A DNA stretch of 64,000 nt, from the NCBI GenBank assembly GCA_025350695.1, contig JANXXI010000087.1:1-64000 (forward strand), in the 5' to 3' direction. The stretch comes from Acidobacteriota bacterium (GTDB lineage Bacteria; Acidobacteriota; Terriglobia; Bryobacterales; Bryobacteraceae). Below, piece by piece: positions 1-31,220 of this stretch. Positions within the stretch are counted from its first letter, which is position 1; every line of letters starts with the position of its first letter. Position numbers and translations under genes: made by a program. Below the pieces are notes generated by a model. The model made no database searches and was not told the DNA's origin. It was given only the letters and a program-made list of their open reading frames with translations.

Positions 1-3000
1 CAACTGGCCCCGGGCGTAATCAACACGACCGATATGCGCCTGGCGAAATCGGGCTCATTTTCGATCAATAAAAATTCCCAAATTTCAACCGATGGCGCCG
101 GGCAATACAATAACGAATTTACCCTTGACGGTGTGTCGAACACTCAGGCTGAAGGCGGATCTACAAGGGTCGGCTTCATTCCGCCGGCCGCCGCTGTTGC
201 CGAATTCAAAGTGCAAACCGCCCCGTTCGATGCCAGCGCCGGCCACAGTGTCGGATCAGTAATCAACGTCAGCACCAAGAGCGGTACGAATCAACTGCAC
301 GGCCAAGCCGAATGGGCCTTGCGCAACTCCGCCTTCGACGCCCCGAACATTTTCCAGAACCGTGCCGGACAGAAAATTCCTCACTATACGGATAATCGCT
401 GGGGCGCGGTAGCCGGCGGTCCGGTGCTGTTCCCCAAGCTTTACAACGGCAAGAATCGCACGTTTTGGTTTTATGGCTATCAAGAAAACAAGTTCGGGGT
501 GCCCCAGTCGTTTGTCAGCAGTGTCCCCACCGATGCCATGCGCAAGGGCGATCTCTCGGCGCTTCTTGCCATCGGCGCAAGCTATCAGGTGTACGATCCG
601 CTAACCACTACCGCCATCGCTGGGGGCCGTTTCCAACGCCAGCCCATCGCAGGGAACATCATTCCCCCTAGCCGCCTGGACCCCGTGGCCCAGAAAATTC
701 TCCCCTTTTGGCCCAGCCCCAACCAACCAGGAAATCGCGATGGTACTAACAATTATTTCTACACTCCATCGGCACTCGAACGGACGTGGGACCATTTGTT
801 CCGTATCGATCATGCCTTCAGTTCCAACCACCGGGCCTTCCTTCGCGCCCATACCGATTTTTGGGAAGAAGACAAGAATCATGTGTTCCCCAACACCCCT
901 GCAGTCGGCATCGTCCTCAACCGCCACAACAAGGGCTTCGCCTTGGATGATGTGTACGTGATCAACCCCGCGTTCCTCTTCAATTTCCGTTACGGCCTGG
1001 AATTCGGCGATTTCATCGAACGTCGCAACAGCCGCGGTTTCGATCTCTCGACGCTTGGATTCTCTTCGCAAACAGTAAACCTGGTCGACAAGACTTTGGC
1101 CACTTTCCCCAACGTGCAGGTCGGAAGCCTAACCCAACTTGGCAACTGGGAATCGGGCGATGGGAAGACCTCTTCGCTAACGCATGCCTTTGCCGGAACC
1201 TTCACCCGCCTTATTGGAAATCACAACATCCGGTTTGGCGCCGAGTCACGCGTGTATCGCCAAAACCTAGGACGCTTCCCGCTCGATACAGCTCCCCAAT
1301 TGGCGTTCAACAGCACTTATACGCGCGGGCCTCTCGATACCGCGGCCGCTCCCACGGTGGGTGGCGAATTAACCGCCTTCCTGCTGGGCATTCCTTCCGG
1401 GGAACTTGATCGCACGGCAAACTACGCGCAGCAAGACAAGTGGTTCGGTTTCTTCATCCATGATGATTATCGTCTGTCTCCGAAGCTTACTTTGAATCTT
1501 GGCCTGCGCTATGAATATGAAACGCCGGTCACCGAACGCTTCAATCGCTCCGTTGCCCACTTCGCGTTTGATCAAGCCAGCCCCGTTGCCGCCCAAGCGC
1601 AAGCCAACTACGCGCTCCGCCCAATTCCCGAATTACCGGCCAACCAATTCAAGGTGCTCGGAGGACTGACATTTGCTGGTGTGGGAAGCAACCCGCGCAC
1701 CTACTGGCAGTCCGACAAGAGGAACTTCATGCCTCGTTTTGGGTTGGCCTACCAATTGGCTCGCCGCACCACGGTGCGTGGCGGCTACGGTATCTTCTTC
1801 GATACGGTTGGCGTGAACAAAACGGCCGGCCTTCAAACCGGATTCAGCCAGGCAACACCAATCCAGGCGACGCTCAACAGCGGCGTCACTTTTATCACCA
1901 GCACGGCAAACCCATTTCCCACCGGTCTCATCGCCGCTCGCGGAGCCGACGGCGGCCTGTCCACCAACTTGGGTCAAGCCGTGACGTTTTATCCGACAGA
2001 GCGGCATCGAGCTTATGTGCAACGTTGGTCGTTAGGCATGCAACAGGAATTGCGTGGCCAATTTTTGTTCGAGGCAACTTACGTGGGGAATCGTGGCACG
2101 AAGCTTGGCCTCAATCATCAACTGGATAACACGCCGGCCCAGTATTTGAGCAAGAGCCCCACCCGCGACACCACGACGATTAATTTCCTGAACGAATCGT
2201 TCCCCAATCCTTTCCTTGGGACTAATCCCATTTACACCGCCAACACGACGCGCGCGGCTTTGCTGCGTCCCTGGCCCCAGTTTAGTGGTGTCAGTGTGGA
2301 ACAACCTATCGGCTATTCCTGGTATCACGCCCTGCAGGTGCGCACCGAAAAGCGGTTCTCGCATGATTACACTTTGCAGCTTTCCTACACCTACGCGAAG
2401 GCCATGCAAGCGACCGAGTTTCTAAATCCCACTGATACCGTCCCGTATCGAACCATCTCCGATCTAGACCGCACCCATCATCTGGTGATCACCGGAATTT
2501 GGGAACTTCCCTTCGGCAGGGGCAAGCGCCTGGGAAGCAATATCGCAAAGCCAGTGAATTTCTTCGCAGGAGGCTGGCAGTTGAACGGAGTAGCCCAGCG
2601 TCAAAGCGGCGCCCCGCTCGCCTTTGGCGATGTATGGACTCTGTTCACCGGCAACTCAAAGGATGTCGTTTTGCCGAAAGACAAGCGCAGCGTGGATCAA
2701 TGGTTCAACGTCAACGCCGGTTTCAATAAGGCATCGGGCGCCCAATTAGCCAACAACATTCGCGTCTCCCCGTTGCGCTTCGGCGGCATTCGCGGCGACG
2801 GCCAAGCCCGTTACGATTTTTCGTTGATCAAGAAATTCCCCATCAAGGAATCGCTAAACATGCAGTTTCGCGCCGAGTGCATTAACGCATTCAATCACCC
2901 AAATCTATTCGTCCCCAACACTACGGTTACCAGCGGATCCTTCGGGGCCAGCACAAATCAAGATGTCCCGCGCCTGTGGCAGATGTCGCTAACATTGAAG

Positions 3001-3006
3001 TTTTAG
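1..3006 (+). CDS. TonB-dependent receptor, Oar-like (5' end outside window)
   Basis: Outer-membrane receptor that would take up a ligand using TonB energy; the ligand cannot be predicted. The reading frame is open from base 1, so the signal peptide and the carboxypeptidase-regulatory-like N-terminal domain expected for this class lie upstream of the window. The visible part begins in the plug domain (motifs NEFTLDGVSN and INVSTKSGTN) and continues into a long beta-barrel with alternating aromatic strands, for example YQENKFG, FFIHDDYRLS and NLGLRYEYE. It ends in LTLKF, the terminal aromatic residue typical of outer-membrane barrels. About 1000 residues are visible. Genes of this class are strongly expanded in Bryobacterales. 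The last codons fall in a 23-base repeat seen again at 3782. The family call is firm and the substrate is unknown. Confidence 0.93.
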   Translation, partial: QLAPGVINTTDMRLAKSGSFSINKNSQISTDGAGQYNNEFTLDGVSNTQAEGGSTRVGFIPPAAAVAEFKVQTAPFDASAGHSVGSVINVSTKSGTNQLHGQAEWALRNSAFDAPNIFQNRAGQKIPHYTDNRWGAVAGGPVLFPKLYNGKNRTFWFYGYQENKFGVPQSFVSSVPTDAMRKGDLSALLAIGASYQVYDPLTTTAIAGGRFQRQPIAGNIIPPSRLDPVAQKILPFWPSPNQPGNRDGTNNYFYTPSALERTWDHLFRIDHAFSSNHRAFLRAHTDFWEEDKNHVFPNTPAVGIVLNRHNKGFALDDVYVINPAFLFNFRYGLEFGDFIERRNSRGFDLSTLGFSSQTVNLVDKTLATFPNVQVGSLTQLGNWESGDGKTSSLTHAFAGTFTRLIGNHNIRFGAESRVYRQNLGRFPLDTAPQLAFNSTYTRGPLDTAAAPTVGGELTAFLLGIPSGELDRTANYAQQDKWFGFFIHDDYRLSPKLTLNLGLRYEYETPVTERFNRSVAHFAFDQASPVAAQAQANYALRPIPELPANQFKVLGGLTFAGVGSNPRTYWQSDKRNFMPRFGLAYQLARRTTVRGGYGIFFDTVGVNKTAGLQTGFSQATPIQATLNSGVTFITSTANPFPTGLIAARGADGGLSTNLGQAVTFYPTERHRAYVQRWSLGMQQELRGQFLFEATYVGNRGTKLGLNHQLDNTPAQYLSKSPTRDTTTINFLNESFPNPFLGTNPIYTANTTRAALLRPWPQFSGVSVEQPIGYSWYHALQVRTEKRFSHDYTLQLSYTYAKAMQATEFLNPTDTVPYRTISDLDRTHHLVITGIWELPFGRGKRLGSNIAKPVNFFAGGWQLNGVAQRQSGAPLAFGDVWTLFTGNSKDVVLPKDKRSVDQWFNVNAGFNKASGAQLANNIRVSPLRFGGIRGDGQARYDFSLIKKFPIKESLNMQFRAECINAFNHPNLFVPNTTVTSGSFGASTNQDVPRLWQMSLTLKF

Positions 3007-3009
3007 GAG
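2987..3009 (+). repeat. 23-base direct repeat, copy 1 (TonB receptor 3' end)
   Basis: This copy covers the last codons and stop of the TonB receptor gene plus the GGAG that follows. It matches 3782-3804 at 21 of 23 positions. The two copies bracket the YpfJ-like peptidase gene. Confidence 0.6.
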
Positions 3010-3028
3010 ACGCAGAGGAGTAAAAACA

Positions 3029-3787
3029 ATGGGCTCCATAGTATGTAGGATGTTGTTCTTAGCAGCGGCAGGCATCTGCGCCCAGACGAATGAATGGCAC
3101 GACTTTAATCGGCAACTCGACACTGGCGTGCGTGGCCCTGACGTTGACAAAGTAGAAAAGAACGCCGAGTGGATCAGCAAATACCTTGGAAAGACCTGGC
3201 AAAGCGTTGCACAACGCTTCGGGACGAAATTCGTCATGCCGTCATTCCTCGACGGGGGTAGGTTACGTTCGTTAAACACTCCATGGAAATGCGAAGGCGG
3301 TAAGGTGGCCATGTTCGATAACGCCGCGTACTGTTCCGCCAGCAACGTGATTTCTTACGATGGCTTTTACCTGGCCGGACTGAGCAAGAGGATCGCGAAA
3401 CGGAATAACTCTCCGGGTGATTTTGCGGTCACCGTGGCGCTTGGGCATGAGACCGGTCACGCCCTGCAATTCCAACTCGGGATTGAAAGCATATTCGATT
3501 TTCCAAACGAACAATTCGCCGACTGTTTTGCGGGAGTGATGACCTACTATTTGGACAAAGACGGTTTGCTCCATCCGAACGATTTCGAAGAAGCGAAAGC
3601 GACGCTAACATTCCTTGGCGAATTCGCCGGAAACAAGAAAGCCGGCCTCTATGACAGGGACGCCCACGGGAACGCGGAGCAAAGGGTAGGGGCGTTTCTG
3701 TCGGGATACCGCTCCGGAGAGAAGGGATGCCTGTCGTACGAACTGAGACCTCCGTGGCGTCCGCCGCTGCCGCCGGGAAGCCGCTAA
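3029..3787 (+). CDS. YpfJ-like neutral zinc metallopeptidase, exported
   Basis: Probable zinc metallopeptidase of the neutral zinc peptidase family (YpfJ type). The zinc motif HETGH is at about residues 139-143. It is followed by EQFADCFAGV, which supplies the usual third-ligand glutamate region, and by AHGNAEQRVGAFLSGY, the conserved C-terminal signature. The N-terminus (residues 1-18) is hydrophobic and ends near CAQ, consistent with a signal peptide or lipoprotein signal. At 252 residues it is slightly shorter than most family members. A GAGGAG ribosome-binding site lies 8 bases before the ATG. The extreme C-terminus (PPWRPPLPPGSR) is proline-rich and unlike the family. Its stop codon lies inside a repeat that resembles the end of the preceding receptor gene, so the tail may be a recent addition. 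Substrate unknown. Confidence 0.82.
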   Translation: MGSIVCRMLFLAAAGICAQTNEWHDFNRQLDTGVRGPDVDKVEKNAEWISKYLGKTWQSVAQRFGTKFVMPSFLDGGRLRSLNTPWKCEGGKVAMFDNAAYCSASNVISYDGFYLAGLSKRIAKRNNSPGDFAVTVALGHETGHALQFQLGIESIFDFPNEQFADCFAGVMTYYLDKDGLLHPNDFEEAKATLTFLGEFAGNKKAGLYDRDAHGNAEQRVGAFLSGYRSGEKGCLSYELRPPWRPPLPPGSR

Positions 3788-3804
3788 TATTGAAGTTGTA
3801 GGAG
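3782..3804 (+). repeat. 23-base direct repeat, copy 2 (looks like a receptor-gene end)
   Basis: It matches 2987-3009 at 21 of 23 positions. Read in the receptor frame it would encode L-I-L-K-L-stop, close to the L-T-L-K-F-stop of copy 1. It may be the fossil end of a second TonB receptor gene. It supplies the peptidase's TAA stop and the GGAG before the next gene. Confidence 0.6.
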
Positions 3805-3809
3805 CTGCA

Positions 3810-6173
3810 TTGATCTCAGAGCCGAATGAAAGCCGTTTGGTGGAATACAAGAATGTGGGGCAGACCCCCTGGTCTGCGGCTCGCCCCCCGGCCAGCCTGT
3901 TCCGGTATAGGGTACGGCTCCAATTCACCCTAGCGTTACTTCTCTCCCTTTCCCCCGTACCAGCCCAATCTCCCACGGAAGCCGGACAAAAATCCTTCGC
4001 CGAAAAATGCGCCGGCTGCCACGGATCCGAAGCCGAGGGCCGCGAAATGGGCCCCCGCCTGGTCGCCACGCGCCGCATGCGTAGCCGCACCATCCAGCAA
4101 ATCCGCGGCATCATCCAAAAAGGCGTGATCTCCTCCGGCATGCCCGCCTTCGACCTGCCTCCCTCCGAACTCGACGCCCTAGCCGCCTTCGTCCGCTCAC
4201 TCAACTCAACCGCCGCCGAAACCGAAGTCCCAGGCAATTCCATCGCCGGCGCCCAATTCTTTTTCGGCAAAGGAAAATGCTCTGAGTGTCACATGATCCG
4301 TGGGCGGGGCAAAGCCGTCGGTCCCGACCTGTCGAACCTAGCCCGAGAACTCACCGTCGGCGAAATCCGCGAGGCGATAACGAACCCAGCCGCGCGCATC
4401 ACCCCCGGCTACGAATTGGTCACAATCGAACTCAAAGACGGCAAATCCATGCGAGGCTTCGCCCGGGGCCGCACCAACTTCGACGTCCAAGTGCAAGGCC
4501 TCGACGGCCGCTTCCACTCCTTCCTTCAACCGGATATCAAGTCCATCCAAAACGAAAAGCAAACGCTAATGAATGCGGTAACCGGAACCCCCGCCGAACT
4601 CCGCGACCTGACGGCGTTCCTCTGCAGCCTAGGCCGCCCCGGCGAAAATCCCGCGCTTTCGAGCACCATGCCTTCCAGCAACCCAGGCATCGATTTCGCC
4701 CGCATTCAAAATCCGAAATCGGGCGATTGGCTAACCTACAACGGAACGCTAGACGGTAACCGCTACAGCAACCTAACCCAAATCAACACAGCCAATGTGA
4801 AGAACCTCGGCGTGAAATGGATTTACCCAGTGGAACACTTCGGCCTGGAAATGACGCCCCTGGTTGCCGACGGCGTAATGTACATCACCGGCCCCAACAC
4901 CGCCATTGCGCTCGACGCCACCACCGGACGCCAACTCTGGAAATACTCTCGCCCCCGAACCACCGGCCTCATCGGCGACGCCTCCCTAGGCACTAACCGA
5001 GGCGTGGCGATCCTCGGCGACAAAGTTTTCATGTCGATGGACAACGCCCACCTGATCGCCCTGAACCGCACTACTGGCGCTCTAGTCTGGGATGCCTACA
5101 TGCCCGAAGAGCCCCAGAAATACGGTTCAACGGTGGCCCCGCTTCCGGTGAAAGATAAGCTAATCGCCGGCGTCTCCGGCGGCGACCGCGGCATCCGAGG
5201 CTTTCTCGCGGCCTATAGCCCAATCACCGGCGAACGTCTCTGGCGCTTCTGGACGATTCCGCTAAACGGCGAACCCGGATCAGAGACATGGAAGGGAACG
5301 CCACCCCTGTATGGCGGCGGCGGCACGTGGCTCACCGGCGTGTATGATTCAGCGTTAGACACGCTCTACTGGCCCACCGGCAACCCCTGGCCCGATTCCG
5401 ACGACAAGGATCGCCCCGGCGACAATCTCTACACCAACAGCATAATCGCCTTGAATCCCGATACCGGAAAGCTGAAGTGGCACTTCCAATTCACCCCGCA
5501 CGACGTCCACGATTGGGATGCCACTGAGCCGCCAATTTTAGTCGACACCGTCTACGCCGGCCAGCCCCGCAAGCTACTACTGCAAGCCAACCGAAACGGC
5601 TTCTTCTACGTCTTGGACCGAACGAATGGAAAGCTGCTGCTAGCCAAGCAATTCGCCAAGCGTCAAACTTGGACCCAAGGCATCGACCTCGCGACCGGCC
5701 GCCCCCTAGGTCCGCCCGCCGATCCAACGCCATTCGACTGCCCATCCGACGCGGCCAACTGGAATTCAGCCACCTACAGCCCTGTGACGCGACTGTTATA
5801 CGTGTTGACGATGGAACAATGCCGCGCCCGCCGCACGGGCAGTTGGAAGACAAACGGCATGGAACCCGAACCGCAGCAAAAATTCCTTCGGGCGATCAAT
5901 ATCGACACGGGTTCCCTAGCCTGGGAGATCCCTTTCACCGGGACCGTTTTCCCAAAAACCTGGCCAGGTCTAGTGGACACCGCTGGCGGTCTACTCTTTT
6001 ACGGAGATCCCAACGGAACGTTTGCCGCAGCCGACGAAAAGACCGGCAAGACATTGTGGAGCTTCCCAACAAACGTATACATGAAAGCCTCCCCGATGAC
6101 TTTCGCGGTGGACGGCAAGCAATACGTAGTGATGGTCTCCGGCCCGAACGTAATCTGCTTCGGATTACCGTAA
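3810..6173 (+). CDS. Two N-terminal cytochrome c domains fused to a PQQ-dependent dehydrogenase
   Basis: Predicted exported quinohaemoprotein that would oxidise an alcohol, aldose or similar substrate and pass electrons to its own haems. Haem-binding motifs are CAGCH near residue 67 and CSECH near residue 157. The second cytochrome region includes AITNPAARITPGYE, typical of planctomycete/acidobacterial cytochromes. From about residue 305 to the end lies an eight-bladed PQQ propeller with repeated A-x-D-x-x-T-G-x-x-x-W blades and the HDVHDWD segment holding the expected catalytic aspartate. Most type II quinohaemoprotein alcohol dehydrogenases carry the cytochrome at the C-terminus, so this order is reversed and duplicated. 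The start is uncertain: TTG 3810 has GGAG five bases upstream, but codons 16-31 overlap an interspersed repeat. The signal peptide (LQFTLALLLSLSPVPAQ) lies after it, so a start at GTG 3855 or downstream is possible. Confidence 0.88.
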   Translation: MISEPNESRLVEYKNVGQTPWSAARPPASLFRYRVRLQFTLALLLSLSPVPAQSPTEAGQKSFAEKCAGCHGSEAEGREMGPRLVATRRMRSRTIQQIRGIIQKGVISSGMPAFDLPPSELDALAAFVRSLNSTAAETEVPGNSIAGAQFFFGKGKCSECHMIRGRGKAVGPDLSNLARELTVGEIREAITNPAARITPGYELVTIELKDGKSMRGFARGRTNFDVQVQGLDGRFHSFLQPDIKSIQNEKQTLMNAVTGTPAELRDLTAFLCSLGRPGENPALSSTMPSSNPGIDFARIQNPKSGDWLTYNGTLDGNRYSNLTQINTANVKNLGVKWIYPVEHFGLEMTPLVADGVMYITGPNTAIALDATTGRQLWKYSRPRTTGLIGDASLGTNRGVAILGDKVFMSMDNAHLIALNRTTGALVWDAYMPEEPQKYGSTVAPLPVKDKLIAGVSGGDRGIRGFLAAYSPITGERLWRFWTIPLNGEPGSETWKGTPPLYGGGGTWLTGVYDSALDTLYWPTGNPWPDSDDKDRPGDNLYTNSIIALNPDTGKLKWHFQFTPHDVHDWDATEPPILVDTVYAGQPRKLLLQANRNGFFYVLDRTNGKLLLAKQFAKRQTWTQGIDLATGRPLGPPADPTPFDCPSDAANWNSATYSPVTRLLYVLTMEQCRARRTGSWKTNGMEPEPQQKFLRAINIDTGSLAWEIPFTGTVFPKTWPGLVDTAGGLLFYGDPNGTFAAADEKTGKTLWSFPTNVYMKASPMTFAVDGKQYVVMVSGPNVICFGLP
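3855..3903 (+). repeat. Interspersed palindromic repeat, copy A
   Basis: The core 3855-3877 contains a perfect hairpin, GCAGACC-ccct-GGTCTGC, preceded by GTGGG. The same 23 bases occur in reverse at 23228-23250. Similarity continues through a C-rich stretch to CCAGCCTG. It lies inside the 5' end of the quinoprotein reading frame. Confidence 0.75.
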
Positions 6174-6185
6174 GGTAGCCGCAAA

Positions 6186-6213
6186 GTAGGACGGACCCCC
6201 GGTCCGACTGCCC
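6186..6213 (+). repeat. Interspersed palindromic repeat, copy D (diverged)
   Basis: It starts GTAGGACGGACC and forms the perfect hairpin CGGACC-ccc-GGTCCG at 6192-6206. This resembles copies A and B in layout. It lies 13 bases after the quinoprotein stop and could act as a terminator, but no T-run follows. Confidence 0.5.
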
Positions 6214-6248
6214 AGGACCCGAACCTGCCACCTGTTAAACTAAGCCTG

Positions 6249-23337: not shown

Positions 23338-25722
<2,385 letters not shown>

Positions 25723-25730
25723 GGTTTTCT

Positions 25731-27080
25731 ATGATTCCAACACTTTCAAGACGCGCATGGATTGAGTCGGCCTTTGGAGCCACGGGACTTTCGGCCCTGA
25801 TGTCGCACGAGGCATTTGGCGCGGCGCCGCTGGGTCCGCATTTTGCTCCGAAAGCGAAGCATGTGATCTTTTTATTCATGACGGGAGGGCCGTCGCAGAT
25901 GGATATGTTGGATCCGAAGCCGGCGCTTGCCAAGTATCAGGGACAGAGGCCGTCGACGGTGGATCTGCGGACGGAGCGCGTGACTGGCGGGTTGCTGCCG
26001 TCGCCTTTCGAATTCAAGAAGTATGGCAAGAGCGGGATTGAGGTAAGTGAACTGTTGCCGAAGTTTGGGTCGGTGATCGACGACGTTTGTGTTTTGCGCG
26101 GGGTGTATACGTTCAACCCGACGCATACTCCGGCGCGTAGTTTGATTCATTCGGGAAACATTACGGCGGTGCGGCCCAGCATGGGGGCTTGGATTTCGTA
26201 CGGGCTTGGTTCGGAGAATAAGAATCTGCCGGGGTTTGTGGTGCTGAGTCCCGGGAACGGTGGCGGGTCTTTGTGGCGCGCGGGATTTTTGCCGGCTGAG
26301 CATCAGGGAACGCAGTTCAACAATGCCGAGACTGAACCGGACAAGATGATTCGCTACTTGAAGAATCAGCATCTGGATGCGGCGGCACAGCGAAAGCAGA
26401 TGGACTTGGTGCAGGCGCTGAACAAGGATCATGCGGATTCGTTTGGGGTCGATGCTTTGCTGGAGGGCCGGATCAAGGCGATGGAGACAGCTTATAGCAT
26501 GCAGATGGAAGCGTCGGACGTGTTTGATGTGCGCAAGGAGCCGGAGGCGATTCGCGAGGAGTACGGGAAGACGGAGTTTGCCAATGGATGCCTTCTCGCG
26601 CGGCGGTTGGTGGAGCGCGGCGTGCGGTACATCCATGTTTATTATGGGTCCGGGCAGGTTTGGGACGACCACACTTCGATTAATAAGAATTTGAAGAAAC
26701 GGTGTCCGGATATGGATCAGGCGTCGGCGGCGTTGATTCGGGATTTGAAGCGTCGCGGATTATTGGATGAGACGTTGATCGTGTGGGGCGGGGAATTTGG
26801 ACGGACGCCGGTGTCGGAGAATGGCGATGGGCGGGATCATAATCCGTATGGGTTCACGATGTGGATGGCTGGTGGCGGGGTGAAGGGCGGGATGGTGCAT
26901 GGGGCGACGGATGAGTTTGGGTTCAAGGCGGTTGAGGGGCGGGTTTCGATTCATGATTTGCATGCGACGATTTTGAATCAGTTGGGGATTAATCATGAGA
27001 AGCTGACGTACCGGTATGCGGGGCGGGATTTTAGGCTGACGGATGTGAGTGGGGAGGTGGTGCGGGAGATTTTGGTGTGA
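25731..27080 (+). CDS. DUF1501 exported protein
   Basis: Secreted protein of the DUF1501 family, with a fold related to alkaline phosphatases and sulfatases; substrate unknown. The N-terminus LSRRAWIESAFGATGLSALM resembles a twin-arginine signal. Hallmarks are KHVIFLFMTGGPSQMDMLDPKP near residues 43-64, RSLIHSGNI, IHVYYGSGQVWDDH and WGGEFGRTPVSENGDGRDHNPYGF, the last holding likely metal ligands. ATG 25731 is chosen because GAGG lies six bases before it; a GTG at 25719 overlapping the previous stop is also possible and would add four residues. It forms an operon with the DUF1549/1553 gene, paralleling the DUF1592-DUF1552 pair. The remains of an AbiTii gene begin 13 bases after its stop. Confidence 0.92.
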   Translation: MIPTLSRRAWIESAFGATGLSALMSHEAFGAAPLGPHFAPKAKHVIFLFMTGGPSQMDMLDPKPALAKYQGQRPSTVDLRTERVTGGLLPSPFEFKKYGKSGIEVSELLPKFGSVIDDVCVLRGVYTFNPTHTPARSLIHSGNITAVRPSMGAWISYGLGSENKNLPGFVVLSPGNGGGSLWRAGFLPAEHQGTQFNNAETEPDKMIRYLKNQHLDAAAQRKQMDLVQALNKDHADSFGVDALLEGRIKAMETAYSMQMEASDVFDVRKEPEAIREEYGKTEFANGCLLARRLVERGVRYIHVYYGSGQVWDDHTSINKNLKKRCPDMDQASAALIRDLKRRGLLDETLIVWGGEFGRTPVSENGDGRDHNPYGFTMWMAGGGVKGGMVHGATDEFGFKAVEGRVSIHDLHATILNQLGINHEKLTYRYAGRDFRLTDVSGEVVREILV

Positions 27081-27093
27081 GGGGAGATCATCG

Positions 27094-27484
27094 ATGGCTC
27101 TACTTGATGAAATAATTGAATTGGCTTCCAGTGAGCATGGCTCGGTCTCAACCCTTTGAAGAAAATGCCTGGACTGAGAATGAGCTTAACGGCTACCGCA
27201 GAACATAAGACGAAACGATTCCAGCCTATAGGAAGATTAGCGCTCCAGCGAAAGGACTCTTGTTGGGTCCGTTTGGCTTGGAACGGAATGACCAGCCTAT
27301 TCCATCTGTATTGTTAGAGGAAGAAGATAGGCATTGGGCACAATCAGCAGTTTTCTTTCAACCGATTGCTGCCTATGAAGCCAATCCAATTCACGGGGGA
27401 TATTTTTCCCTTCCCTGGCCGAGTAACTTGGTCCTAAAGTACGAACGTATTTTTTCGGATTACGCTTTGCCACGGCTGTCATGA
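27094..27484 (+). pseudogene. Decayed AbiTii-type abortive-infection gene
   Basis: The three reading segments together match the N-terminal AbiTii domain pattern. ATG 27094 opens MALLDEIIELASSEHGSVSTL and meets TGA at 27157, with RKCL readable just beyond it. A second frame from 27170 reads WTENELNGYRRT, meets TAA at 27206, then continues DETIPAYRKISAPAKG, LLLGPFGLERNDQPIPSVLL, EEEDRHW, VFFQPIAAYE and LPWPSNLVLKYERIF to TGA at 27482. The intervening helix expected between LLRK and WxENELNGY is largely missing, so a deletion shifted the frame. The C-terminal part of the protein is absent. Two stops, one frameshift and truncation mean it cannot encode an intact protein. AbiTii proteins are associated with phage defence. 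Confidence 0.8.
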
Positions 27485-27532
27485 CGTTCATGAATCCGTT
27501 TTAACGCTCTATGCTTTAAGCTAACTAAGCCG

Positions 27533-27626
27533 AGGATTCACCGTAAAGTAGCGCTCTTGTCGTCAGTCGCAACAGCGCTCAGACGAGAATGCAGATCCTG
27601 GGCTTTCGTGCTTCGTGGTGAATCCT
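27533..27626. repeat. 94-base element with perfect 10-base terminal inverted repeats
   Basis: The ends are AGGATTCACC (27533-27542) and GGTGAATCCT (27617-27626), a perfect inverted pair. Inside the right arm is CTTCGTGCTTCGTGG. The rest of the interval 27485-27624 has no gene. The right end runs into the TAG stop of the minus-strand membrane-protein gene. It looks like a palindromic or MITE-like element; no transposase is present. Confidence 0.5.
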
Positions 27627-27983
27627 ATGATCTGGGGGCGGTTGTGAATAGCCAGGCGGCTAGGGCGACCAAGCCTGTTGCAGTGATGGATTGCCAGCCG
27701 GGGAGCGTTTGGGTTTTGTAAATGTCAATGAGTTGCGCGACGACGAAGAAGCAGGCTACGTACACGGCCAGCATCGGGCCTAGTTCTTTGCTGGTTGCGT
27801 TTAGGAGCAGGGAATACGCTAGCAGCACCGCCGCGCCCGTGACGATTAGGATGCCTCGGTTAGCGCCTTGTGACCCTAGCGCCTTGTTGATGATTACGTC
27901 ACCCGCCACTTCCAGCACGGCGCTTAGGCAAAGGATTGCGAGGAAGGCTCCACGGTTTTCCGCGAGACTCCCGATCCAATCAA

Positions 27984-27987
<4 letters not shown>
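27625..27987 (-). CDS. Small four-helix membrane protein, YnfA/SMR-like
   Basis: A 120-residue inner-membrane protein with four predicted helices at about residues 14-33, 42-60, 70-88 and 97-115. The first helix reads [18 protein letters not shown], with a glutamate placed as in YnfA and small multidrug-resistance proteins. The third has [17 protein letters not shown]. These features suggest an SMR-superfamily-like transporter, but similarity is in pattern only and no substrate can be given. The GTG start overlaps the acnA stop (GTGA), so it is co-transcribed after aconitase. Its stop codon lies at the edge of the 27533-27626 element, so the C-terminus may have been changed by that insertion. 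Confidence 0.65.
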
Positions 27988-30620
<2,633 letters not shown>

Positions 30621-30677: not shown

Positions 30678-31220
30678 TTAGGGCTGGACGAAGATCTCGT
30701 TAACTGCGATGGAACCGCCGAAGAACAAGGGGATGCTTGCGCCGGATTTGTAGCTGACGGTGCGACCGTCAGGTGTGGATACTTTGACCTGTTGACGTTC
30801 GGGGTCGACCACCCAGAATTCCTTGGAGCCGTTCTCCAGACAGAGAGCCTCTTTGTCTAAAATTTCCGACGAAGTGTTGGATGGTGAGAGGACCTCGATC
30901 ACCAAGTCCGGTACCCCTGGGAGCCGGCTCGCCTTCAGGGTTTCATTCCACCTGGCCTTGGCAATCACTCCAACGTCCGCAATGCGATATTCATGCTCTG
31001 GCATTGCTCGAAATCCCATTTCGGCTCCAGTCAATCCAAATTTTTTAGCTGGGGCCAATAATAGTTCGACCAGTCGGCATTGTATTAAGTAATGCCGAGG
31101 GTTGGGTGGCGGCACAATGAATAGCTCTCCGTGACGAAGCTCGTATTTGCCATTTTTAGGGTCTGGAACTTTTTCAAATTCCAAAAATGTCATGAGCTGA
31201 GTTTGGGTTACTGTCGCCAC
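30678..31220 (-). CDS. Uma2-family (DUF820) PD-(D/E)XK-like protein
   Basis: Protein of the Uma2/DUF820 family, a restriction-endonuclease-like fold expanded in cyanobacteria and acidobacteria; its role in the cell is unknown. Typical elements are KYELRHGELFIVPPPNPRH near residues 26-44, then YRIADVGVIAKA and VPDLVIEVLSPSNTSSEILDKE, in which the D, E and K are placed for the nuclease core. FWVVDPERQQVKVSTPDG follows. Length 180 is normal. The GTG at 31220 or the ATG nine codons later (31193) could be the start. It stands alone with gaps of 57 and 28 bases. Confidence 0.85.
   Translation of the reverse strand: MATVTQTQLMTFLEFEKVPDPKNGKYELRHGELFIVPPPNPRHYLIQCRLVELLLAPAKKFGLTGAEMGFRAMPEHEYRIADVGVIAKARWNETLKASRLPGVPDLVIEVLSPSNTSSEILDKEALCLENGSKEFWVVDPERQQVKVSTPDGRTVSYKSGASIPLFFGGSIAVNEIFVQP

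Follow-up and report, generated by a model that had tools for sequence, protein, structure and literature searches.

What is the stretch of DNA between the DUF1501 gene and the aconitase of this Bryobacteraceae genome, in which pieces of two reading frames resemble the phage-defence protein AbiTii? The window analysed here is 64,000 nucleotides long (contig JANXXI010000087.1 of assembly GCA_025350695.1). An initial annotation, made from its letters alone, took this stretch to be the relic of an AbiTii gene. The features that bear on the question are listed below; G769 is a genome of the same family with an intact AbiTii protein.

25719-27080: DUF1501 gene (Pfam PF07394, 487 bits), ending with TGA at 27078-27080
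27081-27086, plus strand: putative Shine-Dalgarno-like GGGGAG, its function suggested by sequence
27094-27168, plus strand: first piece of the AbiTii relic, corresponding to residues 1-25 of the G769 protein in frameshift-tolerant alignments
27166-27172, plus strand: deletion junction, with residues 26-39 of G769 (14 residues, net 41 bases) missing and the frame shifted
27170-27484, plus strand: second piece of the AbiTii relic, corresponding to residues 40-142 of G769, with homology as far as 27475
27260-27484, plus strand: orphan open frame inside the relic, TTG start, 74 codons plus stop; 16.7 bits to Pfam AbiTii, under the cut-off
27485-27624, no strand: intergenic DNA after the relic; nothing of the absent C-terminal half aligns as far as 27800
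27625-27987, minus strand: small gene next to aconitase
27984-30620: aconitase (AcnA)

The relic sits between the DUF1501 gene and the small minus-strand gene that adjoins aconitase, and these flanking genes are open frames. Its ATG at 27094 is 13 bases past the DUF1501 stop codon, and GGGGAG begins right after that stop, 7 bases upstream of the ATG. The ATG opens MALLDEIIELASSEHGSVSTL, and an in-frame TGA follows at 27157-27159. The second piece carries WTENELNGY, meets an in-frame TAA at 27206-27208, and then reads DETIPAYRKISAPAKGLLLGPFGLERNDQPIPSVLLEEED, remaining open to 27484 (the second frame after the TAA reads DETIPAYRK...GPFGLERNDQPIPSVLLEEED). Near 27169, between the two pieces, 14 residues less one base have been deleted, a net loss of 41 bases that leaves one odd base. 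The junction sequence TGCCTGG fits the end of the first piece and also the start of the second, so the ends of the junction are ambiguous by a few bases. Homology stops at residue 142 of the 302 of the G769 protein (position 27475, before the stop of the frame at 27484), and about 160 C-terminal residues are missing: beyond residue 142 there was no further alignment to AbiTii through 27800, and a search of the genome with a whole intact AbiTii found no second piece elsewhere. Thus, with two stops, a frameshift, and an end at residue 142, there is no single open frame of about 300 amino acids that includes the C-terminal half.

Most of this anatomy was anticipated by the initial annotation. Its spacing of 13 bases from the preceding stop codon, its two in-frame stops, and its missing C-terminus are borne out, and the frameshift with loss that it placed between LLRK and WxENELNGY can now be given as the 41-base deletion. 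The orphan frame that it reported also exists, from TTG 27260 to 27484, with 74 codons plus a stop. The second frame is the only trace of the gene that an ordinary gene finder would report.

Profile searches identify the relic as AbiTii. The second piece alone matched the Pfam AbiTii family (PF18864) with E = 1.4e-11 (45.3 bits, cut-off 27.6) and the PADLOC AbiTii model at 8.9e-12, and the relic scored 44.3 bits with the Pfam profile in a search of the whole genome. The first piece alone (27 amino acids) matched no Pfam family and had a weak match to the PADLOC model (E = 0.039); it aligned to one intact AbiTii at 56% over 25 amino acids. The glutamate of ELNGY is retained, and it is invariant in all six aligned rows, including the relic. 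The Pfam profile and the intact-AbiTii query found no other AbiTii in the 7.19-Mb genome, and no Rfam family was found in 26900-28200.

We also aligned the DNA to 25 AbiTii proteins by a local DNA-to-protein method that tolerates frameshifts (BLOSUM62; gaps 11/1; frameshift 10; stop −8). Positions 27081-27640 were compared with 12 proteins and then with those plus 10 more, and positions 27041-27800 with 3 more; the G370 copy, which is cut between two contigs, was aligned only in part. Scores ranged from 49 to 280. The best was that of the intact 302-residue protein of G769 (280; DNA 27094-27475 and residues 1-142), with 68 of 123 aligned codons identical (55%) over two frames; among its controls, the best score was 43 for 200 dinucleotide shuffles and 49 for 200 other stretches of the window. 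Scores also exceeded those of the controls for G622 (207; at most 46 and 44 in 200 and 200 controls), for a B. glumae plasmid protein (L043; 137; at most 45 and 42 in 60 and 60 controls), and for G057 (109; at most 38 and 50). The other proteins from the same family scored 97 (G583), 89 (G754), and 49 (G782), the last being the weakest of all and not above controls. At the nucleotide level, the relic matched G769 at 70% over 80 bases and at 72% over 76 bases.

Ten of the 25 alignments were traced. Five of these (G769, G622, G513, G385, and L043) span both frames in order, and they agree on the sites of the lesions: the TGA at 27157, the frameshift at 27169 that also removes 14 residues, and the TAA at 27206. 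The other five follow mainly the second frame (L082, L083, G754, and G782, and L040 with a change of frame at 27159). Additional small frameshifts in the tail (27449 with G622, 27386 and 27405 with G513, and 27464 with G385) were left out of the count of lesions because they differ from one another and because G769 needs none. The initial annotation had suggested that matches in both frames to one AbiTii protein would support its reading, and five proteins give such matches; together with the profile results, they sustain the identification of an AbiTii relic that is read in two frames.

How did such a gene come to be here? AbiTii is rare in related genomes: it was found in 3 of 297 from the phylum, 13 of 399 from the class, and 7 of 237 from the family, with the window's own genome counted in each. 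(The phylum and class sets are samples of larger groups, and one family match, G014 at 27.2 bits, was weak and was set aside.) There was none in the listed genome from the same genus (G001). The window's locus was the only match with internal stops in the class and family searches, and a search of 61 genomes with the relic DNA (27081-27640) gave a match in the window's genome alone. As for mobile elements, the second piece had no match in phages and the relic piece had none in viral contigs; with the intact-AbiTii alignment as the query, there were 16 loci in viral contigs. Plasmid searches gave three records from B. glumae (E = 6e-6) and, with E allowed to reach 10, 36 records, of which a few are clearly other proteins; there was none with the G313 protein as the query. 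Two loci in genome contigs matched, one of them apparently G057 itself. Two matches in G041 (E = 0.002 in a frame of 122 amino acids, and E = 0.14 on repeat) lack the ELNGY segment and look spurious.

The composition of the relic is also unusual. G+C content is 46.3% in 27094-27484 versus 55.1% for the window, and 16 of 1273 stretches of the same length were equally low (50-base steps, including stretches that overlap the relic). Third-position G+C is 0.44 in the second frame versus 0.68 in the DUF1501 gene, 0.64 in the DUF1549/1553 gene, and 0.74 in aconitase. The lower G+C and the patchy distribution fit an acquired gene, and horizontal gain is likely but not proven. (A tree built before G769 was found groups the relic with G622, G513, G385, and a long-branched Arthrobacter row, with support of 94/96, but it is weak and was not used to decide on transfer.) Differences from G769 number 48, 29, and 78 at codon positions 1, 2, and 3 (155 in total over 123 codons), so much of the divergence arose while both genes were coding, with the decay coming later. 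To judge from these codon positions, coding constraint at the protein level acted before the decay.

The surroundings in relatives say less about the exact site. Neither aconitase nor the small gene was beside DUF1501 in any of 29 relatives' loci (L008-L036, with about 1.5 kb of flanking sequence, or less for one), and the downstream open frames differ in five of the DUF1501 operons that most resemble the window's (G010, G004, G001, G030, and G005). The aconitase neighborhoods of G001 and G010 have aconitase alone in common with the window. G005 shares aconitase, the arginyl-tRNA synthetase on its far side, and a Uma2-like gene, and nothing on the relic's side. A separate search for the small gene (27625-27987) did not find it in G001, G010, or G005. 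No locus examined retains the window's gene order, and we obtained no empty site that lacks the relic. The natural reading is the insertion of a defence gene here, downstream of DUF1501, and its later loss, but insertion at precisely this position is unproven.

Nearby, the intergenic DNA after the relic contains a perfect 10-base inverted repeat, AGGATTCACC / GGTGAATCCT, with 74 bases between its arms (27533-27626). Besides itself, 27485-27640 has three matches of 15-22 bases in the genome, at the level of chance, and no second copy. Beyond aconitase, the minus strand at 30681-31220 carries a gene for a putative endonuclease of the Uma2 family, which also matches a PADLOC candidate (PDC-S03, E = 1.1e-22).

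We propose, with a probability of roughly 96%, that 27094-27475 is a pseudogene of a probably acquired and once-constrained AbiTii of about 302 amino acids, which was inactivated by these lesions and now probably has no function. An intact gene would once have stood just downstream of DUF1501, apparently with its own ribosome-binding site. It was probably gained horizontally, and its protein would have been under constraint until inactivation. Two nonsense changes, the frameshifting deletion, and the loss of the 3' half would account for the inactivation, and we assign no order to them. The remnant would be unable to make a whole AbiTii and is most likely inactive now: no working protein is expected from it, since 14 residues of the core are gone along with the entire second half. 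The gene's past role was presumably defence; for this AbiTii subfamily, anti-phage activity is taken from the naming of the family.

Could the gene be intact in the organism, and broken by errors of sequencing or assembly? The genome is in 391 contigs, which would make this easier to accept, but two nonsense changes, the 41-base deletion, and the C-terminal loss would all have to be erroneous. Also, the flanking genes are open, and the whole intact AbiTii query found no second piece in the genome, so we consider errors to be extremely improbable. Recoding or programmed frameshifting is ruled out by the missing core residues and C-terminal half. Alternatively, the orphan frame might still encode a small working protein derived from AbiTii: it is open through part of the conserved core, and 78 of the 155 differences from G769 are at third positions (a count for the whole relic, not for the orphan frame alone). 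However, it would start at a TTG in the middle of the domain and has neither the ELNGY segment nor the C-terminal half. Moreover, none of 60 relatives, the window's genome not counted, matched the relic DNA. A working protein is very unlikely on these grounds, and it is hardly credible that the frame is still made as a mini-AbiTii that acts, for example, as a regulator or a dominant-negative of incoming AbiTii systems.

A different kind of alternative concerns the origin of the gene and not its fate. AbiTii might have been inherited vertically within the family and lost nearly everywhere, instead of being transferred, and the best homologue that we found (G769) does belong to the same family. 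This seems unlikely, without being far-fetched: only the seven family genomes match, one of them weakly (G014), the scores of the family's copies against the relic differ greatly (280, 97, 89, and 49), and the relic's G+C is atypical. An acquired gene that later decayed remains our preferred explanation, and it makes this locus a clean case of the loss of a phage-defence gene from a lineage that once carried it.

Another genome from the same family, G728 (L113), has a second broken AbiTii, at about 2306-6242, in two parts on a single contig. The DNA between the parts, about 3.94 kb, has terminal inverted repeats that match (GGTAGTGGGTCAGTTTGAA), and an 8-base duplication of the target is apparent. 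One frame within this DNA matches the NCBIfam IS1 transposase with 60.3 bits, short of the cut-off of 100, and this copy was apparently split by an IS1-like element. That break, besides the relic, suggests that loss of AbiTii is recurrent, which bears on the cost or the transience of such genes.

AbiTii is a known defence family, and what we describe is its ordinary turnover and not a new system. PMC3710099 presents AbiTii as a novel alpha+beta domain, about 180 amino acids long, with a highly conserved glutamate, which may be the one of ELNGY or another. According to the same paper, a number of bacteria have AbiTii fused N-terminally to HEPN domains, and the L. lactis protein that was originally identified has no HEPN domain. 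In six intact relatives (L043, G057, a Klebsiella plasmid protein, G622, G513, and G385), AbiTii was the only domain above the Pfam cut-off, and it lay within residues 1-198 of about 300. The intact AbiTii of G513 matched no solved structure, and that of G769 matched no NCBIfam family. Two genomes of the same class have intact copies with notable neighbors. In G057 (L082, 3956-6000), AbiTii directly follows a gene for a TIR-domain protein (Pfam TIR_2), and the two are possibly a defence pair. In G622 (L104, 4449-6566, minus strand), the gene immediately before the AbiTii gene encodes a Schlafen AlbA_2 domain.

Like AbiTii proteins in general (PF18864; PADLOC PDLC02334), the relic keeps the N-terminal pattern from LLDEII to YAL in order, and in 5 of the 10 traced alignments its LLDEII...LLRKC block is in register before W..ELNGY; unlike them, it has two stops, a frameshifting 41-base deletion, and no C-terminal half. 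Its nearest intact relatives (G769, G622, G513, and G385, from the same family or class) have 302-304 amino acids and align with both of its frames, but their genes are intact, and their neighborhoods match no window gene of at least 120 codons. Among the ten window genes that we scanned with PADLOC, whose library may lack an AbiTi model, none matched AbiTi. PMC3985639 reports that when lactococcal two-component Abi genes, including abiTii, were expressed in E. coli, only AbiEii inhibited growth; the homologues examined for toxicity included AbiTi from C. catus, and the C. catus AbiTii had no antitoxicity. PMC3985639 and PMC3710099 place AbiTii in one domain family with the named founder, the AbiT system (abiTi/abiTii) from Lactococcus lactis. 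The relic has this domain family in common with AbiT, but whereas the founder is a two-gene operon, the relic is a broken gene.
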